DNA from: Rhodocyclaceae bacterium
Lineage (GTDB): Bacteria > Pseudomonadota > Gammaproteobacteria > Burkholderiales > Rhodocyclaceae
Assembly: GCA_019455325.1 (NCBI GenBank)
Contig: JACFMQ010000003.1
Location: 248,001-312,000 of the forward strand
Length of the DNA stretch: 64,000 nucleotides
Direction of reading: 5' to 3'
Shown here: in pieces, positions 4,260 to 38,345 of the stretch
Position numbering within the stretch: the stretch's first letter is position 1
Layout: every line of letters begins with the position of its first letter
Made by a program: the position numbers and the translations under genes
The notes under the pieces: model-generated
The model's database searches: none
The model's input: only the letters and a program-made list of their open reading frames with translations
Told to the model about the DNA's origin: nothing

Positions 4260-6053
4260 ATGCCGCCCACCGCTCCCGCTCCGGCGCCCTCGCTGAAGAT
4301 CTACCTGCGCCTGCTCGGCTACGTCCGCCCCTTCATCGGCGCCTTCGTCGTCAGCATCGCCGGCTATCTGATCTTCGCCTCGTCGCAGCCGATGTTCGCC
4401 GCCGTGCTCAAGTACTTCGTCGACGGCCTCGGCGCAGCGCCTGGCACGACGCAGCACCGGTTGCCGCTGCTCGGCAGCGTCGAGCTGATGTACGGCATCC
4501 CGATCCTGATGGTGCTGATCATCGTCTGGCGCAGCATCGGCTCGTTCCTCGGCAACTACTATCTCGCCAAGGTTTCGCTCGGCCTCGTCCACGACCTGCG
4601 GCTGGCGCTGTTCAACAGCCTGCTGCGCCTGCCGAACGCCTATTTCGACCAGCAGAACTCCGGCCACCTGATCTCGCGCATCACCTACAACGTGACCATG
4701 GTCACCGGCGCCGCCACCGACGCCATCAAGGTGGTGATCCGCGAGGGACTGACCGTCGTCTTCCTCTTCGGCTACCTGCTGTGGATGAACTGGAAGCTGA
4801 CCGCGATCATGGTCGCCGTGCTGCCGGTGATCGGCCTCATGGTCGGCAGCGCCAGCCGCAAGTTCCGCAAGCAGAGCAAGAAGATCCAGACGTCGATGGG
4901 CGACCTGACGCACGTCGCCTCGGAGACCATCCAGGGCTACCGCGTCGTCCGCAGCTTCGGCGGCGAGGACTACGAGTCGGCGCGCTTCCAGGCGGCGAGC
5001 GAGGACAACACCGTCAAGCAACTGCGCATGGTGAAGACCGGCGCCGTGTTCACGCCGGCGCTGCAGCTCGTCACCTTCTCGGCGATGTCGGTGATCCTCT
5101 TCCTCGTGCTCTTCATGCGCGGCGACGCGTCGGCCGGCGACCTCGTCGCCTACATCACGGCCGCCGGCCTGCTGCCGAAGCCGATCCGCCAGCTCTCCGA
5201 GGTCAGCGGCACGATCCAGAAGGGGCTGGCCGGCGCCGAAAGCATCTTCGCGCAGCTCGACGAGGCGCCGGAGTCCGATCGCGGCACGGTCGAGCGCGAG
5301 CGCATCGCCGGCCGCATCGAAATCCGCGGGCTGAGCTTCACCTACCCCGGCAGCGACCGGCGCGTGCTGGAGGACGTCGACATCGTCGTCGAACCGGGGC
5401 AGATGGTTGCCATCGTCGGTCGTTCGGGCAGCGGCAAGTCGACGCTGGTCGGTCTGATCCCGCGCTTCTATCACCACAGCGAGGGGCGGATACTGATCGA
5501 CGGCGTCGACATCGAGGGTTACACGCTCAGGAACCTGCGCCGGCACGTCGCGCTGGTGACGCAGCAGGTGGTGCTGTTCAACGACACCGTGGCCGCCAAC
5601 ATCGCCTATGGCGACCTGGCGCAGGCGCCGCGCAGCGAGATCGAGAAGGCGGCCGCCGCCGCCCACGCCCGGGAATTCATCGACCGGCTGCCGCAGGGCT
5701 TCGACACGCCGGTCGGCGAGGATGGCGTGCTTCTCTCCGGCGGCCAGCGGCAACGCCTGGCGATCGCCCGCGCGCTGCTCAAGAACGCACCGATCCTGAT
5801 CCTCGACGAGGCCACCTCGGCGCTCGACACCGAATCCGAGCGCCACATCCAGGCGGCGCTCGACGAGGTGATGAAGGGGCGGACGACGCTGGTCATCGCA
5901 CACCGCCTGTCCACCATCGAGAAGGCCGACCTGATCCTGGTCATGGACCAGGGGCGCATCGTCGAGCGCGGCACGCACGCCGGGCTGATCGCCGCCAATG
6001 GCCACTACGCGCGGCTGCACGCCGTGCAGTTCCAGGAAGCTGCCGCCGGCTGA
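4260..6053 (+). CDS. msbA: Lipid A export ABC transporter, permease/ATP-binding protein MsbA
   Basis: A full-length 597-residue half-transporter that, as a dimer, flips lipid A-core across the inner membrane. About six hydrophobic helices occupy residues 20-310. The ATPase domain has Walker A GRSGSGKST, signature LSGGQRQRLAIARALL, Walker B ILILDEATSALD and the H-loop in IAHRLST. The ATG at 4260 gives the family's usual length; upstream in-frame codons at 4212 only add an unrelated basic stretch. Lipid A/core kinase and glycosyltransferase genes flank it on both sides. The next gene converges on it, 8 bases away. Confidence 0.95.
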   Translation: MPPTAPAPAPSLKIYLRLLGYVRPFIGAFVVSIAGYLIFASSQPMFAAVLKYFVDGLGAAPGTTQHRLPLLGSVELMYGIPILMVLIIVWRSIGSFLGNYYLAKVSLGLVHDLRLALFNSLLRLPNAYFDQQNSGHLISRITYNVTMVTGAATDAIKVVIREGLTVVFLFGYLLWMNWKLTAIMVAVLPVIGLMVGSASRKFRKQSKKIQTSMGDLTHVASETIQGYRVVRSFGGEDYESARFQAASEDNTVKQLRMVKTGAVFTPALQLVTFSAMSVILFLVLFMRGDASAGDLVAYITAAGLLPKPIRQLSEVSGTIQKGLAGAESIFAQLDEAPESDRGTVERERIAGRIEIRGLSFTYPGSDRRVLEDVDIVVEPGQMVAIVGRSGSGKSTLVGLIPRFYHHSEGRILIDGVDIEGYTLRNLRRHVALVTQQVVLFNDTVAANIAYGDLAQAPRSEIEKAAAAAHAREFIDRLPQGFDTPVGEDGVLLSGGQRQRLAIARALLKNAPILILDEATSALDTESERHIQAALDEVMKGRTTLVIAHRLSTIEKADLILVMDQGRIVERGTHAGLIAANGHYARLHAVQFQEAAAG

Positions 6054-6061
6054 ACGCCCGC

Positions 6062-7498
6062 TCAGGCGGGCGGCAGATGCCGGTCGAACCAGTCGCGCAG
6101 CGCCGAACCTGCCGGCCAGTTGCGCAGCAGGCGCGCCCGGTCGCGCTGCCAGGCGCGCGCGTGGGCGGCGGCCGAGCGGTGCTGCCGCATCGCGTCGAGG
6201 TCGATGAGCACGACGCGCTCGCCGTCCCAGAGCAGGTTGCTCGCCTTCAGGTCGCCGTGGCTGATGCGCAGCCGGTGCAGTTTTCCGAACAGGTCGACGA
6301 TGGCCGCGGCCTCGGCGGCCGGCGGCTCGTGCGCGGCATCGAGGCGGTCGAGCAGGCTCGGCCCGGGGCAATGGGCGACGATCAGCCAGGCGCGCCGGCG
6401 CAGCGGGCCGAAGCGCTCCTCGACCAGCGCCAGCGGCGCCGGCGTGGCAATGCCGAAGAAGCGCAGCCGGTGCGCTTCGCGCCAGGAATGCCAGGCCCGG
6501 CTCGGGCGCCACAGGCGCGAGGCCGCGTGGCCGGCGCTCTTCAGGTTGTAGCGTTTGACGACGCAGTCGCCGACCGCGGCAACGGTGCAGGTGCCGCCGT
6601 CCTTGAGCAGCCGGCCGGCGGCGATCGCCGCGTCCGGATCGGCGAGCAGCGGCGCCAGCGGTTCCGCCTGCTCGCGGACGACGGCGACGAAGCGGTCGAA
6701 TTCCCGGCGCACGGCGAACAGCGAGCAGTCGCGCACGCTCTTCGCCAGCAGGTCGTCGAGCCGGCGCGCGCGCACCGCCGCCGTCTCCCGCAGCAATTCG
6801 CCGGTCGCCGCCGGGGGCCGGCCGCCGCCGCGCGCGTAGGCGGCGAGCAGCGGCTCCGGGCGATCGTCCCAGTCCACCGGCAGTTGCGCCAGCAGGACGG
6901 CGAGATTGGCGATCGCCGCCGCCGGCGGCAGGGGACGTCCCTGTTCCGGCGCGCGCACGCCATCGCCGTCGATGACCAGCAGACGTTCGCCGACGCGCAG
7001 AAAATTGCCGAGGTGCAGGTCGTCCTGAACGAGGCCGGCGGCATGCATCCGGCCGAGCATGGCCAGCGCCGGTTCGAGCATGGCAACGGCCCGCGCGTCG
7101 CCGGCGGGCAGATCGGCGACGCGCGCCCAGGCTTCGGCGAGACTCTCCGCGGAGTCGAGGAATTCAGTGGCGAGGACGTGGCCGCCGCCGGCCAGTTGCG
7201 CCGCCAGCAGCGGCGCCGGCGTCGGGATGCCGGCGGCAAGCAGCGCGTCGATGCCGGCGCGCTCCTGCGCCCAGTGGCGCGCGCTGCCGGCGGCGACGAA
7301 AAGTTTGGCGAGCACGCGCCGGCCGGCGAACTCCGCCTCGCCGACGATGCGCTTGCCGGGCAGCACGCGCAGCAGGCCGAGGAGCGTCAGCGTCCGGCCG
7401 TCGGCGAGGGCGATGCGGCACGGCACCGCCGGCCTGCGCCCGGCCGCGCGCAGGGTCGACGCGTCGGCGGACGGAATGGCGATCGACGGCAAGGCCAT
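6062..7498 (-). CDS. Tandem double LPS/RIO-type kinase
   Basis: This 478-residue protein contains two consecutive small kinase domains. The first has loop HAAGLVQDDLHLGNFL and metal-binding LLVIDGDGVR (residues about 150-190). The second has CVVKRYNLKS, loop HRLRISHGDLKASNLL and VVLIDLDAM (residues about 300-440). Both keep catalytic Asp and Asn, so both could be active, perhaps on two positions of lipopolysaccharide core sugars (inference). It lies 9 bases downstream of the start-side end of a GT2 gene (starts at 8328) and converges with msbA. ATG 7498 is chosen because the upstream frame overlaps the neighbouring gene and lacks similarity. Confidence 0.8.
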   Translation of the reverse strand: MALPSIAIPSADASTLRAAGRRPAVPCRIALADGRTLTLLGLLRVLPGKRIVGEAEFAGRRVLAKLFVAAGSARHWAQERAGIDALLAAGIPTPAPLLAAQLAGGGHVLATEFLDSAESLAEAWARVADLPAGDARAVAMLEPALAMLGRMHAAGLVQDDLHLGNFLRVGERLLVIDGDGVRAPEQGRPLPPAAAIANLAVLLAQLPVDWDDRPEPLLAAYARGGGRPPAATGELLRETAAVRARRLDDLLAKSVRDCSLFAVRREFDRFVAVVREQAEPLAPLLADPDAAIAAGRLLKDGGTCTVAAVGDCVVKRYNLKSAGHAASRLWRPSRAWHSWREAHRLRFFGIATPAPLALVEERFGPLRRRAWLIVAHCPGPSLLDRLDAAHEPPAAEAAAIVDLFGKLHRLRISHGDLKASNLLWDGERVVLIDLDAMRQHRSAAAHARAWQRDRARLLRNWPAGSALRDWFDRHLPPA

Positions 7499-7506
7499 GA
7501 CACCGC

Positions 7507-8328
7507 TCAACGATCGAGCGAATCGTCGGCGAGGATCGCGTCGGCGTCGATGCCGCGCAGTTTGTTGCCGATGCGTTTGCGGCCATTGCGCACATTGCGC
7601 CGGCTGCTGCCAAGGTCGGGATTGAGCACCATCGTCGCATGATTCACGTGGTCGACGTATCGGCCGAGATGCTCGGATTCGAGGAAGCGCATGCGATGGC
7701 CAGCCGCTACCATCTTGCGGTGCATGACGCTGCCAGCGACGGTATCGCCGTCGGCAAAGCCGGTGCCGAGCGCGCGGATGACATCGGTGCGATACATTGC
7801 GCAGTGGCTGCGCAGGTAGTGCAGGCTGTCGTCGAAACGCTCGGCGCGGTAGCTGCGGCGGCCGGTCAGCCGATGCTGCGCGACCTTGATCGATTTTTCG
7901 AGGCGACGTCCGAGCCGTTGCAGCCAGGTCTTCGATTCCAGCTTCCACGAACCGACGCCGGCCAGCTTCTCGTCCTCCGCGAACGGCGCGAGCAGCACGT
8001 CGAGCCAGTCGGCGCGACGGACGAAGGTGTCGGTATGGATCGACAGCACGAAGGGGGTCGTCACCCGCGCCAGCGCCAAGTCCAGCGCGCGCGCGTGCGA
8101 CAGCGGCGGCGTGTCGTCGGGCTCGGCGCGGCGTTCGATCAGCTCGATCCACGACAGGGTCCGCAGATAGTCGAGCGAGGCGTCGCCCGAATCGTTGTCG
8201 ATGACGATCACCTTCGCGCGGCCGGGGTCCGTATGCTTGCGCAACAGTCGCAGGCAGATGCGGGTGATCTCCGGCGTCCGGTAGTTCGGCACGAGGATGG
8301 TGACCTGCGGTTCCGTCGGTTCTTCCAT
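7507..8328 (-). CDS. Glycosyltransferase family 2
   Basis: The 273-residue protein has an N-terminal GT-A fold: QVTILVPNYRTPEIT, then IVIDNDSGDASLDYLR. A possible metal-binding cluster is SIHTDTFVRR rather than a plain DXD. It has no transmembrane segment, so it is a cytoplasmic transferase likely acting on O-antigen or core intermediates made with the adjacent dTDP-rhamnose enzymes. ATG 8328 is preferred over the longer frame start because AGGAAAGCCT lies just before it. It is followed closely by the tandem kinase gene in the same direction. Confidence 0.85.
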   Translation of the reverse strand: MEEPTEPQVTILVPNYRTPEITRICLRLLRKHTDPGRAKVIVIDNDSGDASLDYLRTLSWIELIERRAEPDDTPPLSHARALDLALARVTTPFVLSIHTDTFVRRADWLDVLLAPFAEDEKLAGVGSWKLESKTWLQRLGRRLEKSIKVAQHRLTGRRSYRAERFDDSLHYLRSHCAMYRTDVIRALGTGFADGDTVAGSVMHRKMVAAGHRMRFLESEHLGRYVDHVNHATMVLNPDLGSSRRNVRNGRKRIGNKLRGIDADAILADDSLDR

Positions 8329-8353
8329 AGGCTTTCCTGGCGCGGGACGCGCC

Positions 8354-8911
8354 TCATCTCTCCTCTGCATGCGCAGCGGCATCGGTCAGGCGCTCGCCCT
8401 GCGCATCCTTGGCCGACAGCACCGGCGGCCCCGCCAGCGGCCATGCGATGCCGATGTCCGCGTCGTCCCAGCGAATGCACCGCTCGTGCGCCGACGCGTA
8501 GTAATCCGTCGTCTTGTAGAGGAACTCCGCCGTCTCCGACAAGGTCAGGAAGCCGTGCGCGAACCCCGGCGGAATCCACATCTGCCGCCTGTTCTCGGCC
8601 GACAGAATCTCGCCCACCCATTTGCCGAAGGTCGGCGATCCCTTGCGGATGTCCACGGCGACGTCGAACACCTCGCCGACGATCACCCGCACCAGTTTGC
8701 CCTGCGCCTTCGGCGGCAACTGGTAGTGCAGGCCGCGCAGCACGCCCTTCGCCGAGCGGGAGTGGTTGTCCTGCACGAAATCCGGATCGACGCCGGTCGC
8801 CTCGCGGAAGGTCTGCCGGTTGTAGCTCTCGAAGAAGAAGCCGCGCTCGTCGCCGAACACGCGCGGTTCGAGCAGGACAACGTCGGCAATCGCCAGTTTC
8901 GTCGCCTTCAT
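8354..8911 (-). CDS. rfbC: dTDP-4-dehydrorhamnose 3,5-epimerase
   Basis: A cupin-fold enzyme of 185 residues, the normal RmlC length. It epimerises C3 and C5 of dTDP-4-keto-6-deoxyglucose, the third step of dTDP-L-rhamnose synthesis. Diagnostic stretches are GFFFESYN, QDNHSRSAKGVLRGLHYQ (with the catalytic His in LHYQ), WIPPGFAHGFL and FLYKTTDYY. It shares base 8911 with the rfbA stop region and is the last of four overlapping genes rfbB-rfbD-rfbA-rfbC. Confidence 0.96.
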   Translation of the reverse strand: MKATKLAIADVVLLEPRVFGDERGFFFESYNRQTFREATGVDPDFVQDNHSRSAKGVLRGLHYQLPPKAQGKLVRVIVGEVFDVAVDIRKGSPTFGKWVGEILSAENRRQMWIPPGFAHGFLTLSETAEFLYKTTDYYASAHERCIRWDDADIGIAWPLAGPPVLSAKDAQGERLTDAAAHAEER

Positions 8912-9801
8912 CAGAACACCGCCTCCTGCAGCAGGCGCAGCAGGTACTGGCCGTAGCCGTTCTTCGCCAGCGGCGCGGCCAGCGCCTGCAGCCGGGCGGC
9001 GTCGATCCAGCCCTGGCGCCAGGCGATCTCCTCGGGGCAGGCGACCTTCAGCCCCTGCCGCTTTTCCAGCGTGGCAATGAACTGGCTGGCCTCGAGCATG
9101 GACTCGTGCGTGCCGGTATCGAGCCAGGCATAGCCGCGGCCCATGATCTCGACCGACAGCGCGCCCTGCTCCAGGTAGAGACGGTTGAGATCGGTGATCT
9201 CCAGCTCGCCGCGGGCGGACGGCTTGAGGTTCTTCGCCAGTTCGACCACCTGCCGGTCGTAGAAGTAGAGGCCGGTCACCGCGTAGTTCGACTTCGGCTG
9301 CTTCGGCTTCTCTTCCAGGCTGATCACCTTGCCGCCGGCGTCGAACTCGGCGACGCCGTAGCGTTCCGGGTCGTGCACGTGGTAGGCGAAGACCGTGGCG
9401 CCGTCGTCGCGCGCCGCGGCGCTGTCGAGCAGGCGGTGGAAGTCGTGGCCGTAGAAGATGTTGTCGCCGAGCACCAGCGCCGACAGGTCGTCGCCGATGA
9501 ATTCGTCGCCGATGATGAAGGCCTGCGCCAGACCGTCCGGCGAGGGCTGCACGGCGTAGGTCAGTTCGATGCCCCACTGCGAACCGTCGCCGAGCAATTG
9601 CTCGAAGCGCGGCGTGTCCTGCGGCGTCGAGATCACCAGGATCTCGCGGATGCCGGCGAGCATCAGCGTCGTCAGCGGGTAGTAGATCATCGGCTTGTCG
9701 AACACCGGCAGCAACTGCTTGGAGACGGCGAGCGTCGCCGGATGCAGGCGGGTGCCGGCGCCGCCGGCGAGGATGATGCCTTTACGTTTTTTAGTAGCCA
9801 T
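8911..9801 (-). CDS. rfbA: Glucose-1-phosphate thymidylyltransferase
   Basis: A 296-residue enzyme making dTDP-glucose from dTTP and glucose-1-phosphate, the first step of the rhamnose pathway. The N-terminal nucleotide-binding signature is [29 protein letters not shown] carries the metal-binding Asp and [19 protein letters not shown] is the sugar-binding region. It overlaps rfbD by 11 bases upstream and touches rfbC downstream, so the operon is translationally coupled. Confidence 0.97.
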
Positions 9802-27481: not shown

Positions 27482-27814
27482 ATGGCAAACAACACCCCGA
27501 AAAAAGCCAGTCAAACAGACTGGCACCCGGCCGACATCAAGGCCGCACTCGACAAGGCTGGCTGGACGCTGCGCGCGCTCGCCGCGCACCACGGCATCCG
27601 GGCCTCCTCGACGCTGTCGCACACCTTCGAGCGGAGCTACCCGCTCAACGAGAAGCGCATCGCCGACGCCATCGGCGTGCCGCCACAGGTGATCTGGCCC
27701 TCTCGCTACTACCCGGGCGGCACGAAAAAACCGCGCGGCCTGCGCGGCGTCCGTGCCCTCCAGTCTACTCAATCCCGCTGCCAGAGCAATGGCAGCGAAC
27801 GCAAAGCGGCGTAG
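27482..27814 (+). CDS. ner: Ner-family transcriptional regulator
   Basis: A 110-residue protein closely patterned on Mu Ner/Nlp. DWHPADIKAALDKAGWTLRAL is followed by SSTLSHTFERSYPLNEKRI and the diagnostic VIWPSRYYPGG. Ner turns down early and repressor transcription after lytic induction. The C-terminal 35 residues are an extra basic tail compared with Mu Ner (75 aa). It is the first gene after the early promoter. Confidence 0.92.
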   Translation: MANNTPKKASQTDWHPADIKAALDKAGWTLRALAAHHGIRASSTLSHTFERSYPLNEKRIADAIGVPPQVIWPSRYYPGGTKKPRGLRGVRALQSTQSRCQSNGSERKAA

Positions 27815-27816
27815 AC

Positions 27817-28251
27817 ATGCGCCGGCCTGCCGACTCGCTGACAAGAGATCTCTTCGAGGTACCGGCCCCGGCCGTCAGCCTGCCGGGCGCGCTCGACTAC
27901 AGCCTTGCCGTGCGCCGGCTGCTGGTCGAGGCCATCAAGACCAGCGACCTCAACGCCAGCCAGGTCGCTGCGCGTATGGCCGAACTGGTCGGCGCTCCGA
28001 TCTCCGAGCACCAACTGCACGCCTGGACAGCGCCGAGCCGCGAAGGCTGGCGCTTCCCGCTCGAATACCTGCCGGCCTTCGAGGTGGCTGTCGAGACGAC
28101 GGCGCTGACGGCCTGGCTGGCAAGCGTTCGGGGCGGGAAGGTGCTGATGGGCAAGGAAGCGCTCGATGCGGAGATCGGCAAGCTGGAGCGCCAAAAGGAA
28201 GACGCCGCGCGAAAAATCCGTCAACTCAAGCAGGCGATGGGAGAGATGTGA
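27817..28251 (+). CDS. Conserved phage protein preceding the transposase, putative DNA-binding
   Basis: A 144-residue protein. The middle part (ASQVAARMAELVGAPISEHQLHAW) reads like an HTH and the C-terminus is a charged coiled coil (EIGKLERQKEDAARKIRQLKQ). It lies between ner (2-base gap) and MuA (one-base TGATG overlap), so it belongs to the early transposition operon. Proteins of this kind are common before transposase genes in B3-like phages. The specific function is unknown. Confidence 0.6.
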   Translation: MRRPADSLTRDLFEVPAPAVSLPGALDYSLAVRRLLVEAIKTSDLNASQVAARMAELVGAPISEHQLHAWTAPSREGWRFPLEYLPAFEVAVETTALTAWLASVRGGKVLMGKEALDAEIGKLERQKEDAARKIRQLKQAMGEM

Positions 28252-30569
28252 TGAATACCCCGGCACTGAGGGAGGTTCAGCATTACACGCTGGCAGAGAT
28301 CGCCGAGGCGCTCGGCTGCTCGAAGCAGTTCGTTGCGCTTCGCGCAAAAAATGACGCATGGCCGTTTAACGAGGTGCCCTGTCGCGGTGGCAAGAAGCGA
28401 CTCTACCCCGCGGCGACGCTACCCAAGCCCATCGCCGACGCCCTGCAGCTTGCCCGCCTGCACCAGCACATGGCCGCGCTACCCGTACCGGCCATCACCT
28501 CCGAACCCTCCCCCGGCGCGACTTCCCCCTCCCTGGTCGCGCCGCTTTTCCCCGTTGCCAGCGCATCGGCGACGGGTCTTTCTCTTCGTACCACCGCAGG
28601 CGATGCCACCGCGCCGGCCCTGACCAGCCGCCAGCTCGACGTCGAGCGCGCACGCGAGCGGCTACTCGACTTCATCGCGGCCTTCCCCGGCTCGATCGCC
28701 CGCGCCATCGACCACCTGAACGCCGAGCGATACGCCGGCCGCCTGCCGCTGCCGCTGGTCTGGGCCTTCGACAACGCATGGGACAAGCCCCGCGCCAACC
28801 TGCGCCTCACCGTCAAGACCTATCACAACTGGCGGCAGGCGAAGGCGCGGCGCGGTCGCGCGGCCCCCAAACGCATCCAGCCCGACATGGAGATCAAGCC
28901 GTGGTACGGGCTGCTGCTCGCCCTGCGCCAGCGCCCCCAGGGGAGCTGTTACACCTGGATTCACGAGCAACTCGTCAAGCGGTGGGATCGCGCCTGGGGC
29001 GACGACACCCCGAGCTACGACGCCGTGCGCCGCGTCTGCGTGGAGAAGCTCTCGGTCATCGACCAGCTCAAGGGCCGGTGGACCGGTTCCGCCCTGCGCC
29101 AGCACAAGCACTGGAAGCCGCGCACGTCGGACGGAATGGTGCCGTGGCAAGAGGTGCACGCCGACGGCTGGAACACACACTTCACGGCGCCGCACCCACA
29201 GACCGGCGAGTTCGTCACCTACGAAGTCTGGCATTTCCACGACGTGGCCACGCGCTTCGTCCCGCCGCCGGGCATCGGCCTCACCGAGACCTACGAGGTC
29301 ATCACCGCTGGCCTGGAACGATGCGTTCGCGCCGGCGGCATGATGGCCATCCTGCAGACGGACAGCACGAAGGTCGTCAAGCGCTCGCCGCGCTTCACCG
29401 CCGACCCCTTCGCGGCCCTCTCCGAGCGCGCCGGCATAACCGTGGTGCACCCGGTCGAGGTCGGAAACTCCCAGGCGAACGGCATCTGCGAGAACTTCAA
29501 CACCTGGCTCGACAAGCAGGCGCGCGAGCTGGCCACGTACCAGGGCAAGGGCATGGACAGCCTAAGCCTCAAGCGGATCAAGAAGCTCACCGAAAAGATG
29601 GTCAAGGCGGCTACCGCCGGCGACCTGGTCGAGCGCGACCGACTGCACCGCGAGGCCGAGCGGGCCGGCAAGGGGCGCGTGTTCCGGAGCTACGCCGAGG
29701 CGGAGGCGTGGATCAATGCCGTGTGCGACCACTGGAACGACGAGCCGCATCGCGAGCTCCCCAAGATCGCCGATCCGTTGACCGGCCGGCGTCGCCATCA
29801 GACGCCGCGCGAAGCGATGCAGGCGCATATCGATGCAGGCTGGCAGCCCGTCGCGCTGTCCGACGATCACCTCGTCGACCTCTTCCGGCCGCACGTGCGC
29901 TGCAAGGTCACGCGCGAGGCCGTCGCGCCGATCGGCAACAAGCAGCGTTACAGGTTTCCCGGTCTCGGCGCCTGGAACGGCCAAGAGGTTCTGGTGGCGA
30001 TCGACCCGATGGACTGGCGCGCGGTGTGGGTCAAGACGCTCGAAGGCGAATTGCTCGGCGTCGCCGATCTGGTCGAGGCCAGCGGCTACCGCGCCAAGAG
30101 CCAGTACGAGCTGGCCGAGGAAAAACGCGCCAGCGCGCAAATCAAACGCAAGACAGACGACATCGCCAAGATTCGGGCGCGCTCCGGCCTGCAGATCGCC
30201 GCACCGGTGGCCAGCCAGATCGTCATCGGCGGGCGTGTCATCGACGCCGCGGCCCTCTCGTCCATCACTACGCCCATCGACGCCGCATTGCCGCAGGCGA
30301 CTCCGGCCGCACCGGGCGACACACACATCTCGGCGCGTGAAGTCGTCCAGGCCGACACCTCACCCACGCCACGCAGCCGCCGCGAAATGAGCAACGACGA
30401 GCTGCTCGCCGCATGGCAGGCCATCGACGCCCGGATCGCCGCCGGAGAGGCGGTGAGCGACGACGATGCCTACTGGCACGGCAGCTTCCAGCGCCATCCG
30501 ATATGGCGCGCCTGGGCGAGGACGCAGGGGCAGGAAACGGGAAACACCAAGAGGTGGGCCGCCGCGTAG
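28251..30569 (+). CDS. Mu-type DDE transposase (MuA)
   Basis: A 772-residue transposase that cuts and joins phage ends during integration and replicative transposition. The N-terminal HTH (HYTLAEIAEALGCSKQFVALR) matches the MuA end-binding domain. The RNase H core has the triad Asp in EVHADGWN (about residue 305), Asp in LQTDSTKV (about 370) and Glu in ANGICENFN (about 413). A basic C-terminal domain for MuB/ClpX contact follows. It is longer than Mu A (663 aa), mostly through the linker and C-terminus. Confidence 0.95.
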   Translation: MNTPALREVQHYTLAEIAEALGCSKQFVALRAKNDAWPFNEVPCRGGKKRLYPAATLPKPIADALQLARLHQHMAALPVPAITSEPSPGATSPSLVAPLFPVASASATGLSLRTTAGDATAPALTSRQLDVERARERLLDFIAAFPGSIARAIDHLNAERYAGRLPLPLVWAFDNAWDKPRANLRLTVKTYHNWRQAKARRGRAAPKRIQPDMEIKPWYGLLLALRQRPQGSCYTWIHEQLVKRWDRAWGDDTPSYDAVRRVCVEKLSVIDQLKGRWTGSALRQHKHWKPRTSDGMVPWQEVHADGWNTHFTAPHPQTGEFVTYEVWHFHDVATRFVPPPGIGLTETYEVITAGLERCVRAGGMMAILQTDSTKVVKRSPRFTADPFAALSERAGITVVHPVEVGNSQANGICENFNTWLDKQARELATYQGKGMDSLSLKRIKKLTEKMVKAATAGDLVERDRLHREAERAGKGRVFRSYAEAEAWINAVCDHWNDEPHRELPKIADPLTGRRRHQTPREAMQAHIDAGWQPVALSDDHLVDLFRPHVRCKVTREAVAPIGNKQRYRFPGLGAWNGQEVLVAIDPMDWRAVWVKTLEGELLGVADLVEASGYRAKSQYELAEEKRASAQIKRKTDDIAKIRARSGLQIAAPVASQIVIGGRVIDAAALSSITTPIDAALPQATPAAPGDTHISAREVVQADTSPTPRSRREMSNDELLAAWQAIDARIAAGEAVSDDDAYWHGSFQRHPIWRAWARTQGQETGNTKRWAAA

Positions 30570-30628: not shown

Positions 30629-31348
30629 ATGACGCAATTCGCCAACATCCACAACGTCGGCCTTGTGCGCACGGCCGTCGAGAAACTGGTCGGCCGAAAC
30701 AACGGCCTGCCTGGCTTCGGCGCCATCTACGGGCCGGCCGGCTACGGCAAGAGCACCGCGCTGCTCGCCGCCGCCAACGCCACCCGAGCCTACTACGTGC
30801 AGTTGCGCAGCGCGTGGAGCCGCAAGGCGTTCCTGGAAAAAATCCTCGCCGAGATGAGCATCCGCCCGGCCGGGACCATCCCGCAGCTACTCGACCAGGT
30901 GTGCCAGCAGCTCGCCGCCTCCGGCCGGCCGCTGATGATCGACGAGTTCGACTACTGCCTGAAGAGCGCCGGCATGATCGAGCTGGTGCGCGACATCTAC
31001 GAAGCCTCGCAGTCGCCGGTCATCCTGGCCGGCGAGGAGCTGTTGCCGACCAAGCTCAAGCGGTGGGAGCGGTTTCACAGCCGCGTCCTCTCCTGGATTC
31101 CGGCGCAGCCGGTGAGCCTGGCCGACGCGCAGGCGCTGGCGCCGATCTACTGCCCGGTGCCAGTTGCCGACGACTGGCTGCAGATGGCCGTCGACGCCGC
31201 CGGCGGGTCGGTGCGGCGCGTGTGCGTGAATCTCTCCAACGCCGCCGACGAGGCCGCCATCGAGGGGTGGCGTGCCATCGACCGCACGGCCTGGGGCAAG
31301 CGCCCAATCTACACGGGTGAGGCACCGGAGCGGAGGGCTGCTGCGTGA
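30629..31348 (+). CDS. Mu B-type AAA+ target-selection ATPase
   Basis: A 239-residue ATPase with Walker A YGPAGYGKST (about residues 34-43) and Walker B LMIDEFDYC. In Mu, MuB polymerises on DNA, delivers target DNA to the transpososome and gives immunity to self-insertion. It is shorter than Mu B (312 aa) because it lacks the N-terminal HTH appendage, like the B proteins of B3-type phages. It follows MuA on the same strand. Confidence 0.9.
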   Translation: MTQFANIHNVGLVRTAVEKLVGRNNGLPGFGAIYGPAGYGKSTALLAAANATRAYYVQLRSAWSRKAFLEKILAEMSIRPAGTIPQLLDQVCQQLAASGRPLMIDEFDYCLKSAGMIELVRDIYEASQSPVILAGEELLPTKLKRWERFHSRVLSWIPAQPVSLADAQALAPIYCPVPVADDWLQMAVDAAGGSVRRVCVNLSNAADEAAIEGWRAIDRTAWGKRPIYTGEAPERRAAA

Positions 31349-33916: not shown

Positions 33917-34450
33917 ATGAGCAACAAGAAACCCCGCATCAAGACCTCGGCCAGCGCCGTCCCGGTACCGCAGGCACGCGAAGGCGTCGCCGACTACATC
34001 CGCGAGATCGGCGAGCGCCAGCGCGAGCTGACGCGGATCGAGGCCGACATGAACGACGAGATCGCCCGCATCAAGGAGCGCTACGAGGCCGACGCCGAGC
34101 CGCACCGCCAGCGCATCAACACGCTCACCGCCGGCGCGCAGATCTGGTGCGAGGCCAACCGCGAGCAGCTCACGCAGGGCGGCAAGGTGAAGACCGCCGC
34201 CTTCACCACCGGCGAAATCCAGTGGCGCACGCGTCCGCCCTCGGTGCGTATCACCGGCGCCGAGGCCGTGCTCGACCTGCTGCGCCGGATGGGCCTCACG
34301 CGCTTCATCCGCGAGAAGGAGGAGGTGAACAAGGAAGCGATCCTCAACGAGCCGGAGGCCGTGGCGCACGTCGGCGGCATCAGCATCAGCCAGGGCGAGG
34401 ATTTCCTGATCGTGCCGTTCGAGGCCGAACTGACCGGGGAGGCTGCGTGA
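33917..34450 (+). CDS. gam: Host-nuclease inhibitor Gam
   Basis: A 177-residue protein, nearly the length of Mu Gam (174). A long N-terminal helix (YIREIGERQRELTRIEADMND) is followed by IWCEANREQLTQGGKVKTA, IQWRTRPPSVRITG and ILNEPEAVAHVGGISISQGEDF. Gam dimers coat double-stranded DNA ends and block RecBCD-type exonucleases. AAAGGAG precedes the ATG. It is the last clearly Mu-like early gene before the DGR. Confidence 0.94.
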   Translation: MSNKKPRIKTSASAVPVPQAREGVADYIREIGERQRELTRIEADMNDEIARIKERYEADAEPHRQRINTLTAGAQIWCEANREQLTQGGKVKTAAFTTGEIQWRTRPPSVRITGAEAVLDLLRRMGLTRFIREKEEVNKEAILNEPEAVAHVGGISISQGEDFLIVPFEAELTGEAA

Positions 34451-34692
34451 TGGAGCGAGATTTTTCCGTGGTGGCCATCAAGGTGAACTGCTCCGGCTCC
34501 TGGGCGAACCTGGTCACCGTTCCCGCCGCTCGTTACGACGAGGTCAAGGCGGCCTGCACCGTGCTTGCCGGGGCGCATCGCGGACCGATCCGTTTCAAGG
34601 CCATCGACGCGGCCGGCGGCGTGATCGAGGAATACAGCCCGATGCCCCCGAGCGGGATCTGCGAGTGGCACGAACCCCGGCACAGGAGGTGA
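34450..34692 (+). CDS. Hypothetical small phage protein
   Basis: An 80-residue protein whose ATG overlaps the gam stop by one base. A mixed alpha/beta pattern is visible (VVAIKVNCSGSWANLVTVPA; PIRFKAIDAAGGVIEEYSP). No family is recognised; coupling to gam suggests an early function. Confidence 0.5.
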   Translation: MERDFSVVAIKVNCSGSWANLVTVPAARYDEVKAACTVLAGAHRGPIRFKAIDAAGGVIEEYSPMPPSGICEWHEPRHRR

Positions 34693-34696
34693 CGCA

Positions 34697-34882
34697 ATGA
34701 CCCCGCCCGACACCGCCGCCCGCGCCGAACTCGCGCAAGCGATCACCACGCTCGGCCGCCTGCTGCCGATGGGGATGCAGGTGCTGATCTACCACCCGCC
34801 CGGCGAGCAGCGTGCCGCCATCGAAACCCTCTACCCGGACGGCTCGGCCACCCGCCACTGGGTCGACCAGGCCATGCACTGA
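34697..34882 (+). CDS. Hypothetical small phage protein
   Basis: A 61-residue protein preceded by AGGAGGTGACGCA, a very strong ribosome-binding site. It has a helix followed by VLIYHPPGEQRAAIETLYPDG. Unknown function; it is the last gene before the first DGR target, 16 bases away. Confidence 0.5.
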   Translation: MTPPDTAARAELAQAITTLGRLLPMGMQVLIYHPPGEQRAAIETLYPDGSATRHWVDQAMH

Positions 34883-34898
34883 CCCTATGGAGACCCTC

Positions 34899-35270
34899 AT
34901 GAGCAAAGCGCAATGGATCAAGGAAAACCTCTCCCCCGGCGAGGAGTACGCCGGCCTCATCCTCGGCAAGAACGGTGAACAGGACTATCACCTGATTCTC
35001 CTGCCCGGCGAGGCCGAGAAGGTCACCTGGCCGAAGGCCAGCGAATGGGCCGGGAAAGCCGGTGGCGAACTCCCCACCCGCCGCGAGCAGTCCCTCCTGT
35101 TCGCCAACCTCAAAGAGCACTTCAAGGCCGCCTGGTACTGGTCGTGCGAGCAGCTCGCCTCCGACGCCGGGTTCGCCTGGGATCAGTACTTCCTCAACGG
35201 CGGCCAGGGCGACCACCACGAGAGCGTCGAGGGCCGCGCCCGCGCCGTCCGCAGATTGCCCATTCAGTAA
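34899..35270 (+). CDS. DGR target protein 1 (DUF1566/C-type-lectin-like variable protein)
   Basis: A 123-residue protein. Its C-terminal two thirds follow the DUF1566/CLec pattern (DYHLILLPGE, ASEWAGKAGGELPTR, LLFANLKEHFKAAWYW) and end in the variable repeat VR1. The diversified residues lie between FAW and SVEGRARAVRR: the template's Asn codons have become Asp, Tyr, Leu, Asn, Gly, Gly, Asp and His. It has no signal peptide or membrane segment. GGAG 6 bases before ATG 34899 decides the start. A paralogue follows 25 bases downstream. The role is presumably ligand or receptor binding. Confidence 0.88.
   Translation: MSKAQWIKENLSPGEEYAGLILGKNGEQDYHLILLPGEAEKVTWPKASEWAGKAGGELPTRREQSLLFANLKEHFKAAWYWSCEQLASDAGFAWDQYFLNGGQGDHHESVEGRARAVRRLPIQ
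35150..35256 (+). repeat. DGR variable repeat VR1
   Basis: A 107-bp copy of the template repeat at 36298-36404, at the 3' end of target gene 1. It differs at 11 positions, all of them adenines in the template (changed to G, T or C). The flanks are identical, including the GC-rich 3' part GGGCCGCGCCCGCGCCGTCC that should serve as the initiation-of-homing site. Confidence 0.95.
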
Positions 35271-35295
35271 TTCATCCATTTCAGGAGCGCACGCA

Positions 35296-35745
35296 ATGAC
35301 CATCACCCTTGAGGCCATCAAGGCCGAGCAGTCGAAGATCGCTGCCATGATCTCGGCGTTCGAGCAGCAGCCGTCCTATCCGATCAGCGTCCCGTTCCCG
35401 CCCCTCAACGAGGGCGAGAAGTTCGTCGGCGTGGTCATCAGCGCCGACGGCAGCCGCCGGCACTACCTGATCCTGCTGCCTGGCGAGCAGGCGAACATCA
35501 AGTGGCAGCAGGCGATGGATTGGGCGCAGTCCATCGGCGGCGAGCTTCCCGACCGCGTCGAGTCGGCCCTGTTGTTCGCCACCATGAAGGATGAGTTCGA
35601 GCCCGAGTGGTACTGGACACGCGAGCAGCTCGCCTCCGACGCCGGGTTCGCCTGGCTTCAGACCTTCTACCGCGGCGACCAGCGCGACGGCCGCAAGAGC
35701 GTCGAGGGCCGCGCCCGCGCCGTCCGCAGATTAGTCATTCAGTAA
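35296..35745 (+). CDS. DGR target protein 2 (DUF1566/C-type-lectin-like variable protein)
   Basis: A 149-residue paralogue of target 1 with a different, helical N-terminus (TLEAIKAEQSKIAAMISAF). It shares RRHYLILLPGEQ, IGGELPDRVESALLFATMK, WYWTREQLASDAGFAW and the C-terminal SVEGRARAVRRLVIQ. The variable residues are Leu, Thr, Tyr, Arg, Asp, Arg, Asp, Gly, Arg, different from target 1 at almost every site. AGGAG precedes ATG 35296. Expression with target 1 and avd as one transcript is likely. Confidence 0.88.
   Translation: MTITLEAIKAEQSKIAAMISAFEQQPSYPISVPFPPLNEGEKFVGVVISADGSRRHYLILLPGEQANIKWQQAMDWAQSIGGELPDRVESALLFATMKDEFEPEWYWTREQLASDAGFAWLQTFYRGDQRDGRKSVEGRARAVRRLVIQ
35625..35731 (+). 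repeat. DGR variable repeat VR2
   Basis: A 107-bp copy of the template repeat at the 3' end of target gene 2. It differs at 13 positions, again all template adenines. The set of altered adenines overlaps but is not the same as in VR1, so the two repeats were mutagenised independently. The same GC-rich 3' end is present. Confidence 0.95.
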
Positions 35746-35769
35746 TTCGGTAATTCGATTTTCGTCAGC

Positions 35770-36123
35770 ATGGCACTCCACACCGAACTGCCGATCTACA
35801 AGGTCGCCTACGACCTGTTCGACGCCAGCACGGATCTCGCCAAGAACATGCCGCGCGATTTCAAGGCGAGCATCGGCGGCAAGCTCCGCGACGAGTGCGT
35901 CGACATCGTCACGCTGATCTTTCGGGCCAACGTCGCGCAGGACAAGACGCCGCACCTGGACAAGCTCATCGAGCGCGTCCAGGTGATCGAGCTGATGCTC
36001 CGGCTGTCGCGCGACAAGCGCCTGATTTCGACGGGCCAGTACGCCAAAGCCGTCGAGCTGACCCGTAGCGTCAGCCGGCAGGCCGGTGGGTGGCGCCGCT
36101 CCGCACGTTCGCCTGCTTCATGA
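35770..36123 (+). CDS. avd: DGR accessory variability determinant (Avd-like)
   Basis: A 117-residue all-helical protein with the four-helix pattern of Avd/23S-IVP proteins: LPIYKVAYDLFDASTDLAKNMPR, then GGKLRDECVDIVTLIFRAN, LIERVQVIELMLRLSRDKRLIS and YAKAVELTRSVSRQAGGWRRS. In Bordetella phage BPP-1, Avd forms a pentameric barrel that binds the RT and template RNA and is essential for mutagenic cDNA synthesis. It lies directly between the second target and the template repeat, the standard place. The start is the only ATG giving full length; its ribosome-binding site is weak. Confidence 0.88.
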   Translation: MALHTELPIYKVAYDLFDASTDLAKNMPRDFKASIGGKLRDECVDIVTLIFRANVAQDKTPHLDKLIERVQVIELMLRLSRDKRLISTGQYAKAVELTRSVSRQAGGWRRSARSPAS

Positions 36124-36137
36124 TGGTCAAGGCCACC

Positions 36138-37577
36138 ATGACTGAGCGACTCTTTAATCTGGTCGTGCCGCTGGCTCACGAGGCCACCGCCATGCGCACC
36201 GCAGATACCGCCGGCAGCAGCCGGGGCCGGTCTGGCGCAGTTTCCCCGCTGATCGGCGACAGCCTTCGGCGGGGCGACGTGGATAGCACGAATGGACGCA
36301 GCTCGCCTCCGACGCCGGGTTCGCCTGGAATCAGAACTTCAACAACGGCAACCAGAACAACAACCACAAGAGCGTCGAGGGCCGCGCCCGCGCCGTCCGC
36401 AGATCAATACGGCTGCCACCAGCCTGCTGACTTTTCTTTCGTCGCCCTGGTCGAGGCGTACTTCGACTGCCGCCGCAACAAGCGCAACAGCGACGCCGCG
36501 CTCGCCTTCGAGCAGCGCCTGGAGTTCAACCTCTACCGGCTCTACCGCGAACTGGCCGACGGCACCTACCGGCCGGGCCGCTCGATCTGCTTCGTGGTCA
36601 TCCGGCCCAAGCCCCGCGAAGTGTGGGCGGCCGATTTCCGGGACCGGATCGTGCACCACCTGCTGTACAACCGCATCGCACCGCGCTTCCACGCCGCGTT
36701 CGTGGCCGATAGCTGCGCCTGCATCCCCGGCCGGGGAACCCTCTACGCCGCGCGCCGCCTGGAAAGCAAGGTGCGCAGCGCCACACAGAACTGGAGCCGG
36801 CCGGTCTGGTACCTGAAACTGGATCTCGCCAACTTCTTCGTCAGCATCGACAAGCGCATCCTGCGCGAGCAGCTCGCCGCGCGCGTTACCGAACCCTGGT
36901 GGATGCGCCTGGCCGAGACCATCCTGTTTCACGACCCACGCGTGGGCGTCGAGCTGCGCGGATCGCCGGCCCGGCTGGGGCTTGTCCCGGAACACAAGCG
37001 TCTGGCCCGGCAGCCCTCGCATCTCGGCCTGCCCATCGGCAATCTCAGCAGCCAGTTTTTCGCCAATGTGCACCTCGATGCACTCGACCAGTTCATCAAG
37101 CATCGCGTCGGCGCCAGGCACTACGTCCGCTATGTCGATGACTTCGTGTTGCTTCACCCATCTCCGCAGTGGCTCAACGATGCCAAGGCCAGGATCGAGG
37201 CATTCCTCGCCGATCGCCTGCACCAGCGCATCAACCCGGCCAAGACCATCCTGCAGCCCGTCGAGCGCGGCATCGACTTCGTTGGCCACGTCCTGAAACC
37301 GTGGCACCGCGCAACGCGCCGCCGCACGGAGGGCGAAGCGCGGCGCCGGGTTGCCGTAACGCCGGAAGAAGATTTCCTCGCCGTGGCCAACAGCTACTTC
37401 GGCCTGCTGCGCCAGGCACAGCACAGCCATCACAGCCGCGCGCGCCTGGCCAACGTCGTGCGCCGCCGGGGGCGCTGCGTCAAGGGCGATCTTACCAAGA
37501 CCTATCCGAGGGGCCTGATGCTAGACCGCGGTGTCGGCGGCGTAGCACCGGCCCCTGCGCTTGGAAACTCGAAATGA
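36138..37577 (+). CDS. DGR reverse transcriptase
   Basis: The RT core begins around base 36429 (FSFVALVEAYFDCRRNKRNS) and includes YRPGRSICFVVIRPKPREVW, DFRDRIVHHLLYNRI, WYLKLDLANFFVSIDK and the DGR-type motif LPIGNLSSQFFANVHLDALD. The catalytic YVRYVDDFVLLH has its YVDD at about 37131-37142; INPAKTILQPVERGIDFVGHVL follows. The IGNLSSQ box in place of QGxxxSP is diagnostic of DGR RTs. No ATG, GTG or TTG lies in frame between the TR and the core, so translation must start upstream and read through the TR in another frame. ATG 36138 (AAGG 5 bases before) is chosen; GTG 36279 is the alternative. The stop overlaps the next ATG. Confidence 0.9.
   Translation: MTERLFNLVVPLAHEATAMRTADTAGSSRGRSGAVSPLIGDSLRRGDVDSTNGRSSPPTPGSPGIRTSTTATRTTTTRASRAAPAPSADQYGCHQPADFSFVALVEAYFDCRRNKRNSDAALAFEQRLEFNLYRLYRELADGTYRPGRSICFVVIRPKPREVWAADFRDRIVHHLLYNRIAPRFHAAFVADSCACIPGRGTLYAARRLESKVRSATQNWSRPVWYLKLDLANFFVSIDKRILREQLAARVTEPWWMRLAETILFHDPRVGVELRGSPARLGLVPEHKRLARQPSHLGLPIGNLSSQFFANVHLDALDQFIKHRVGARHYVRYVDDFVLLHPSPQWLNDAKARIEAFLADRLHQRINPAKTILQPVERGIDFVGHVLKPWHRATRRRTEGEARRRVAVTPEEDFLAVANSYFGLLRQAQHSHHSRARLANVVRRRGRCVKGDLTKTYPRGLMLDRGVGGVAPAPALGNSK
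36298..36404 (+). repeat. DGR template repeat TR
   Basis: A 107-bp repeat matching VR1 and VR2 except at adenines. It is rich in AAC/AAT: read in the target frame it encodes eight Asn codons between Trp and Ser, the AAY design that allows many residues but never a stop codon. It has no target-gene sequence upstream and soon meets a stop in that frame, so it is a template and not a third target. It sits between avd and the RT core, as in known DGRs. Confidence 0.95.
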
Positions 37578-37894
37578 ACTGGAAGATGACGATGGAACAA
37601 CTAACACAAGAGCAAGCGATTGCGTTTCACGACAGTGGCGCCTGGAAGCAAATGGGTATCCGCGAGCGGGCTGTCTTCCAGATGGCACAAGACCGGCTGT
37701 GCATGCCGTTCAGCGAGTTTCACAAAGCGTGCGAAGAAGTGCTTGGTCGCCCGGTTTATACGCACGAGTTCGGCATGAATCGCGACGGCCTGCAAGCTGA
37801 GCTGGAAGGTAAAGCAAAGGCACCAACGCTTGAAGAGATTTTGGCAATGCTGCCGGCTGAAAAAACGGTGGTTCTGATGCACAACGGGGAGTAG
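37574..37894 (+). CDS. Small phage protein translationally coupled to the DGR reverse transcriptase
   Basis: A 106-residue protein starting at an ATG that overlaps the RT stop (ATGA); further in-frame ATGs at 37586 and 37592 are possible, the last with GGAAG upstream. The sequence has WKQMGIRERAVFQMAQDRLCMPFSEFHKA and VLGRPVYTHEFG, a pattern I recall from uncharacterised phage proteins (DUF7736-like). Function unknown; its coupling to the RT makes it a candidate DGR-linked gene. Its codons are less GC-rich than its neighbours. Confidence 0.6.
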   Translation: MNWKMTMEQLTQEQAIAFHDSGAWKQMGIRERAVFQMAQDRLCMPFSEFHKACEEVLGRPVYTHEFGMNRDGLQAELEGKAKAPTLEEILAMLPAEKTVVLMHNGE

Positions 37895-37901
37895 ACGCAC
37901 C

Positions 37902-38345
37902 ATGCCCCGCACCCTCACCACCGAACGCCTCCGCCTCACCCGCCTCGTGCACGTCGCCCGCCGCGAGCTGGCGATCGCCGACGACGCTTGGCGCGCGCTG
38001 CTGCGCAGTGATCGCTTCAAGGTCGACAGCTCGGCCGACCTGTCGATCGGCGGCCTCGAACGCCTGCTGCTGCACCTGAAAGCCTGCGGCTTCAAGGTGC
38101 GGCCGAATCCGCAGAAGAAGCTGCCCACCCCGCACAAGGGGCTGGCGCTGACCAAGCAGGACATCGAGGCCAAGATCGCCTGTCAGCTCAAGGCCCTCGA
38201 CAAGCCCTGGCCCTACGCGCACGCCGTGGCGCGGCGCATCCACCCCGCGGTGTCGGCCTTCGAGTTCCTGACGCCCGAGCAGCTCGGCGATGTCTCCAGC
38301 GCGCTCGAACGCACGATCCGTTACCGGCAGCGAGGCGCGGCCTGA
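37902..38345 (+). CDS. gemA: GemA-like regulatory protein (Mu gp16, DUF1018)
   Basis: A 147-residue protein. RLTRLVHVARRELAIADDAWRALL, LLLHLKACGFKVRPNP and WPYAHAVARRIHP fit the DUF1018 family. Mu GemA alters host gene expression and DNA supercoiling. Standing just upstream of the Mor-like gene is the same order as in Mu, which shows that the DGR cassette was inserted between the Gam and GemA blocks. Confidence 0.85.
   Translation: MPRTLTTERLRLTRLVHVARRELAIADDAWRALLRSDRFKVDSSADLSIGGLERLLLHLKACGFKVRPNPQKKLPTPHKGLALTKQDIEAKIACQLKALDKPWPYAHAVARRIHPAVSAFEFLTPEQLGDVSSALERTIRYRQRGAA

Follow-up and report, generated by a model that had tools for sequence, protein, structure and literature searches.

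A complete diversity-generating retroelement with an RT-15 RNA directly upstream of its template repeat in a Mu-like prophage

Parts of the element and evidence of copying

We analysed a stretch of 64,000 nucleotides (the window) from a Rhodocyclaceae bacterium (assembly GCA_019455325.1, contig JACFMQ010000003.1, positions 248,001 to 312,000), in which positions 34899–37577 hold a complete diversity-generating retroelement (DGR), set among the early genes of a Mu-like prophage. All its parts lie on the forward strand. Two open reading frames encode target proteins with a variable repeat (VR) at the 3' end. Target 1 (34899–35270; VR1 at 35150–35256) is a single C-type lectin (Lcl_C-like) domain of 123 amino acids, and target 2 (35296–35745; VR2 at 35625–35731; 149 amino acids) has a longer N-terminus followed by the same domain. 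The next gene, avd (35770–36123), matched Pfam bAvd (44.6 bits, cut-off 40) and the PHROG Avd family (116 bits, E 2e-33); it scored 51 bits against the NCBIfam Avd model, below the cut-off of 80, and a PDB sequence search with its product found nothing at E up to 1. An RT-15 RNA (Rfam RF03018, 36107–36298; cmscan 195 bits, E 3.7e-49) then leads directly into the template repeat (TR, 36298–36404), a 107-nt match to VR1 and VR2, and the reverse transcriptase (RT) frame (36279–37577; RVT_1 61.8 bits, PHROG RT 396 bits) carries the DGR motifs IGNLSSQ and YVDD. A first-pass annotation made from the letters alone had read the two targets with 3' VRs, the Avd-like gene, the TR and the RT with these motifs, in this order on one strand, as a DGR placed between Gam and GemA-like genes of a Mu-like prophage, and that reading is borne out; the RT-15 RNA, the overlap of the TR with the RT frame and the octamers 3' of the VRs had gone unnoticed.

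The first-pass annotation had named the alignment of VR1, VR2 and TR as a check, and in this alignment the repeats differed only at TR adenines over the 107 nt: 11/11 mismatches for VR1 (p 5e-8) and 13/13 for VR2 (p 1e-9), both p values being computed on the first 106 nt, which contain 27 adenines. A search of the same genome with the TR returned three matches, the TR, VR1 and VR2, and no further VR; an AAC-rich repeat pattern had no match in this genome.

Relatives were collected by RT scans, from which we took the best 80 of 113 genome relatives and the best 80 of 342 viral-contig relatives and added phage records (170 entries, with L numbers, including the window and its copies L002–L005). 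A TR/VR pair was found in 162, the window and its four copies among them; the remaining entries (L001, L015, L027, L034, L077, L082, L151, and L168) were excluded from TR-based counts. Eighteen repeat loci, a second copy of Burkholderia phage Magia among them, were excluded from the counts of neighbourhood, avd–TR gap, RT phase, hairpins, octamers, folds, and synonymous changes. With duplicates kept, 4398/4447 mismatches fell at TR adenines (353 VR–target pairs from 158 loci, the window and the duplicate contigs among them; open-ended frames were dropped for length figures, keeping 344/353), and with duplicates removed the count was 3925/3972 (314 pairs, 140 loci).

Variation at template adenines in related strains, as the first-pass annotation had anticipated, was seen between near-identical contigs and between the window and the related loci L084 and L086. 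Between L136 and L137, 20 differences occur in 2643 bp; 14 of them lie in a VR, each at a TR adenine. L094 and L095 differ only once in 5514 bp, again at a VR position that is an adenine in the TR. The TR of L084 carries five changes relative to that of the window. Outside the shared adenines, its VR1 has four differences, each identical to a TR change, and its VR2 has five, of which four equal TR changes and the fifth lies where the L084 TR, unlike the window TR, has an adenine. L086 has six TR changes, which match 6/7 and 6/6 such differences in its two VRs. Because the non-adenine TR changes recur in both VRs of L084 and L086, the TR must have been copied into the VRs since the elements split, in one or more of the lineages.

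The contig comparisons gave two further observations. Six of the 11 differences between L091 and L095 cluster within 16 nt downstream of the RT (L091 5027–5042), outside recognised VRs. L006 and L090 are near-identical, with no substitutions and 109 gap columns, and their second VR pair measures 54 nt versus 106 nt.

The VRs are set apart from the TR by an octamer array in their 3' flank. VR1 is followed by octamers at 35261 and 35269 (spacing 8) and a third at 35278, one base off phase (35261–35284), and VR2 directly by three tandem octamers with a spacing of 8 (35736–35759). The arrays overlap the target stop codon, which in the VR1 array lies in the first unit. Across the family, lag-8 identity was 0.455 after VRs, compared with 0.222 after TRs and 0.269 in shuffled flanks, and two or more NNTTYR units at 8-nt spacing were present in 228/314 VR flanks, 0/140 TR flanks, and 8/314 shuffles. 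We propose from this distribution that the octamers may mark the VRs as recipients.

The RT clade and its RT-15 RNA

The best PDB sequence match of the RT was entry 8ub7, 'Reverse transcriptase' (E 3.9e-37), which we take to be the enzyme of phage BPP-1; the best group II RT followed at E 4.5e-8, and the NCBIfam group II model reached 85 bits (cut-off 300). A tree was built from 39 RTs, a chosen sample of relatives with only two group II rows and several long branches. In it, the window RT grouped with L084 and L086 (support 100/99) as part of a 21-row clade (98/98), and the two group II rows stood apart from the DGR RTs (100/100). The phylogeny suggested by the first-pass annotation thus places this RT with DGR enzymes and not with group II introns. 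RT-15 was detected by cmscan in 21/21 rows of the clade and in 0/16 other DGR rows of the tree. The sister of the clade is formed by Bacteroides phage F2 and MT836212 (100/99).

In the window, the RT-15 match is full-length (model positions 1–192; 195 bits versus a gathering score of 82), and its end coincides with the first TR base. In each of the 23 other clade loci scanned with Rfam, RT-15 ended no more than 6 nt from the start of the TR. The distance from the avd stop to the TR is 174 nt in the window and 138–232 nt in 136/138 loci measured. Over 20 relatives, 48 predicted pairs were kept in 95.4% of cells and 29/48 showed two-sided changes, a level approached by 0/500 shuffles and by no slid version. 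As these rows were picked as Rfam matches, the set leans towards the fold; a run independent of Rfam, on 95 sequences, yielded 41 pairs, of which 25 had two-sided changes.

The association was also found starting from the RNA. An exact 19-base RT-15 pattern matched at least 80 stretches in viral contigs, some shared with the RT scan; Avd lay upstream in 74/76, the RT downstream in 70/73, and an adenine-biased TR 129–169 nt on in 61/65 evaluable loci. The misses include L190 and L192, which lack both Avd and RT and are not RT-15 by Rfam; L202, which has RT-15, Avd and RT and in which no TR/VR pair was found; and L215, whose contig ends shortly past the pattern. L213 has RT-15 and a shortened TR with no RT match, and two VRs still pair with that TR. 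Under strict filters, RT-15 was found in this genome only among 369 genomes of the class.

The element resembles the BPP-1 DGR (mtd-avd-TR-brt) in the order of target, Avd, TR and RT on one strand and in its adenine-specific change. The BPP-1 target Mtd is described as having its VR at the 3' end and a C-type lectin domain (PMC10743442), as the window targets do. The RNA, by contrast, lies on the other side of the TR. In BPP-1, avd abuts the TR (0 nt) and the 144 nt between TR and brt are filled by RF03022 ('Bacteriophage Diversity-Generating Retroelement RNA' in Rfam), whereas the window has 174 nt with RT-15 5' of the TR and no 3' spacer. A search of window positions 34500–38000 for RF03022 at E up to 1 returned RT-15 alone, and the RNA is not assigned to the BPP-1 type. 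From the TR end to RT residue 20, the distance is 28–58 nt in 19/21 rows of the RT-15 clade, the other two having an inserted gene, as against 150–335 nt in 12/14 other DGRs with a TR (the second DGR of this genome, described below, left out). The two short-gap exceptions among the 14 are phage F2 (L311, 56 nt) and MT836212 (L319, 36 nt). These two also resemble the RT-15 clade in their longer avd–TR distances (128 and 68 nt; 0–34 nt in nine other DGRs with an annotated Avd end, F2 apart), but neither has an Rfam match at the gathering score, so the mirrored order may predate RT-15.

RT-15 also precedes the TR, as in the window, in Burkholderia phage Magia, Shewanella phage vB_Sb_QDWS, and Pseudomonas phages Cruim01, Haboob, and LPPA56; in the stretches of these five phages that were covered, Mu transposition genes are not annotated, unlike in the window. 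Magia, vB_Sb_QDWS, Cruim01 and Haboob fall in the same RT clade as the window. The Cruim01 record annotates RT-15 as a misc_RNA between Avd and RT. The link from RT-15 to the DGR template repeat is drawn here, the Rfam line itself reading 'RT-15 RNA' only; no paper naming RF03018 or RT-15 RNA was found in the open literature searched, and the 2017 paper from which the RT motifs stem lay outside the reach of that search. In Bacillus phage BalMu-1 (L308 2286–2429), an RT-14 RNA lies directly 3' of an adenine-biased TR, a position that makes RT-14 probably a DGR spacer RNA too.

The RT frame is open from 36090, and GTG 36279 is the last ATG, GTG or TTG ahead of the conserved RT part (from about 36402); the window has no canonical start between this GTG and 189 nt past the TR, so that translation of the RT would take in the TR as a leader. 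Overlap by itself is not new, since structural group 3 of DiGReF is described as having a TR that overlaps an end of the RT frame (PMC3521204). The window TR likewise overlaps the 5' end of its RT frame, and the definition of that group as given there makes no mention of RNA 5' of the TR. After four loci without an RT motif and four with a gene between TR and RT had been set aside, the phase of the RT frame relative to the TR was constant in 123/132 loci, and a start codon within 36 nt after the TR was present in 9/9 off-phase versus 23/123 in-phase loci (Fisher p 1e-6, the loci being related by kinship and not independent). The TR–RT spacing of L058 was measured wrongly, a VR–VR pair having been included. 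A coding role in the RT frame for the stretch upstream of the TR was rejected, as there is no third-position excess and relatives read the same bases in other frames.

In four relatives (L060, L068, L104, and L148), a gene lies between TR and RT, beginning 26–48 nt past the TR; RT-15 and an adenine-biased TR are retained in each of them. The inserted gene is PAPS-reductase-like in L068, has no Pfam match in L060, and by eye resembles a cytosine methylase split over frames in L104. Retention of both past the inserted genes indicates that RT-15 and TR travel together and that the RT start need not be near.

Proposed template RNA, target proteins and alternative explanations

Taken together, these data lead us to read the element as a complete DGR, active in the recent past and belonging to a distinct, RT-15-carrying RT clade, within a Mu-like prophage, with RT-15 and TR forming its template RNA, to which we assign a probability of about 0.7. 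The position of RT-15, its covariation and its co-travel with the TR strongly support the view that it would form the 5' part of the template RNA. As no 3' fold was found and RT-15 and TR stay together past inserted genes, the RNA is most likely the part that binds RT and Avd, in a mirrored position.

Several points limit this view or weigh against it. Folded on its own, the window RNA is not clearly more stable than its shuffles (z -1.1; 23/200 as good). The lack of a fold 3' of the TR comes from RNAalifold, run without a BPP-1-type spacer as positive control; the program gave no pair in the 160 nt 3' of the TR (102 sequences) and likewise none in three RT control stretches (105–109 sequences). 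Ten near-identical pairs of contigs were compared, and in eight of them the recognised VRs did not differ; a search of seven genomes of the genus gave, besides the window, only weak short matches and no second copy of the element. Finally, the window VRs have no strong 3' hairpin, their best stems being 3 and 4 bp. The first-pass statement that all parts look intact therefore holds for the parts themselves, the open frames and the adenine-confined mismatches, and does not extend to a strong VR hairpin. In the family, a hairpin of at least 7 bp follows 55/314 VRs, and as such a hairpin is reported as not strictly required in BPP-1 (PMC12875486), we did not treat its absence as defining.

The mechanism that we envisage starts from one transcript, suggested by the gene order, that would contain avd, RT-15, TR and RT. 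RT-15 would fold 5' of the TR and most likely provide the platform bound by RT and Avd. The RT would then copy the TR with misincorporation opposite adenines, in keeping with the mismatch pattern, and the cDNA would take the place of the corresponding 3' segment in target 1 or target 2, as the TR changes mirrored in the VRs of relatives suggest. The GC-rich 3' end common to TR and VRs, together with the VR-only octamer array, may mark the recipient and spare the TR. In BPP-1, the system from which most is known of how DGRs work, the 3' spacer is reported to recruit the RT–Avd complex, and a spacer adenine to prime cDNA synthesis (PMC12875486). With the folded RNA 5' of the TR and the RT frame running from the TR, cDNA initiation here is probably not via a spacer of that type; it could, for example, be primed on a nicked VR beside the octamer array. 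A folded RNA on the side of the TR opposite to that in BPP-1 suggests that copying is started or organised differently, and a natural clade with this arrangement makes the generality of the BPP-1 mechanism testable. The RT-15 RNA family also gains a concrete candidate role, and RT-15 plus TR would be a compact template RNA that has already been moved apart from the RT gene in nature.

The target proteins bear on what is diversified. The model of target 1 (pLDDT 97.3) has its best PDB matches in the C-terminal domains of Legionella Lcl and Bdellovibrio Bd2740, and its match to Pfam Lcl_C is below the cut-off; none of the 50 VIA-align rows listed carries the name Mtd, which does not imply its absence. 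Target 2 is 52–53% identical to target 1 in alignments, and the VR thus lies at the C-terminus of a C-type lectin-fold protein in both, by model for target 1 and by homology alone for target 2. Between one and four targets were recognised per locus (16, 95, 41, and 6 loci, respectively), many contigs being incomplete; the third target of Magia lies 7.1 kb from its TR. Where BPP-1 has one tail-protein target of 381 amino acids, the window has two short targets in the early region. The targets are small, probably soluble C-type lectin-fold proteins encoded with early genes. We tentatively extend the reading to the whole RT-15 clade, with an inverted template RNA, nothing folded 3' of the TR, a cDNA start unlike that of BPP-1, and variable proteins that would act intracellularly as diversified early proteins and not as tail fibres; we regard this extended version as less likely than not. 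The element points to a class of phage DGR with its targets among early genes.

A serious, though not favoured, alternative is that the targets are receptor-binding proteins of the virion, as in BPP-1, encoded away from the tail genes, and that the DGR alters host range. Viral DGR targets in three clades are reported to be mostly tail proteins (PMC8144416), the C-type lectin fold would suit such a function, and the announcement of the Magia genome, in which a possible DGR with comparatively short targets is already noted, proposes a part in adaptation or host range (PMC7883833). However, the targets have little beyond the lectin domain, the cassette sits among early, recombination and integration genes, and no VR was found in the tail genes of the well-annotated Magia genome.

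The position of RT-15 could also be read as that of a regulatory or processing element of the avd–RT messenger, controlling RT translation for instance, outside the template RNA of an otherwise ordinary DGR. All possible RT starts of the window within 160 nt before the TR do fall inside RT-15, and its Rfam name is merely 'RT-15 RNA'. We consider this unlikely, because RT-15 remains joined to the TR and not to the RT in the four relatives with an inserted gene, because possible start codons vary between members (upstream of the TR, within it or just past it), and because its position mirrors that of the BPP-1 DGR RNA.

Improbable too is a role of RT-15 mainly as a cDNA stop at the 5' edge of the TR, with RT–Avd recruitment and priming left to the 3' flank, that is, the start of the RT frame. 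The 26–48 nt between TR and inserted gene in the four relatives leave little room for such a flank, the 160 nt 3' of the TR gave no consensus fold, and synonymous change at the RT 5' end does not dip below its range elsewhere in the gene: it is 0.52, 0.43 and 0.54 in the first three ten-codon blocks after the TR and 0.35–0.58 in later blocks (117 sequences). A conserved RNA within the RT 5' end, sought as a candidate in its own right, is unsupported on the same two counts. For a stop speak the motif at the avd end of BPP-1, which is reported to halt reverse transcription (PMC12875486), and the end of RT-15 at the TR itself.

A recently decayed copy is very improbable: the weak VR hairpins and the missing canonical start from GTG 36279 to 189 nt past the TR would fit, but the frames are open, all mismatches lie at TR adenines, and the TR changes are mirrored in the VRs of near relatives.

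The carrier prophage, spread of the cassette and further observations

The carrier has the genes of a Mu-like prophage in the order MuA and MuB, Gam, cassette, GemA and late activator, followed by genes for terminase, portal and head. The MuA-like transposase (27753–30569; PHROG 310, 268 bits) and MuB-like protein (30629–31348; PHROG 296, 215 bits) lie upstream of the Mu Gam-like protein (33917–34450; Pfam Phage_Mu_Gam, 143.5 bits), and the GemA-like protein (37902–38345; Pfam GemA, 46.9 bits) lies downstream of the cassette, all on the forward strand; the Pfam Mor match is below its cut-off. This setting is partly repeated in four related Mu-like contigs, with Gam upstream in L111 and L121 and GemA downstream in L121, L084, and L086. 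The window MuA or MuB was matched in at least 6/168 loci, a lower bound on Mu-like carriers since most loci extend no more than 8 kb upstream. Neighbour annotation covered 115 of the 447 cluster representatives listed, almost all of them on the cassette strand.

The cassette is a portable module of Mu-like and other phages. Identity to the window in L084 and L086 is 97% and 95% for Avd and 90% and 82% for target 2, but 28% and 61% for the matched part of MuA, indicating that the cassette moves as a unit. Magia, for comparison, is a tail-sheath phage with an integrase. L084, the closest cassette, is in a contig binned as Candidatus Omnitrophota, which is probably a binning error or else a very wide transfer.

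The same genome carries a second, distant DGR on contig 29 (L183), with VRs at 5249 and 6224, a TR at 7273 and an RT at about 8143–9327; 18/20 and 14/17 mismatches lie at TR adenines, there is no Rfam match, and by eye a Dam-like methylase frame lies between TR and RT. With the differing genes found in this gap in L060, L068, L104 and L148, the space between TR and RT appears to be a recurrent cargo site. At the Avd position of L306, the gene at 1872–2216 is annotated as a '23S rRNA-intervening sequence protein', and an Ideonella plasmid (L317) carries, per its annotation, two Avd and two RT genes in tandem.

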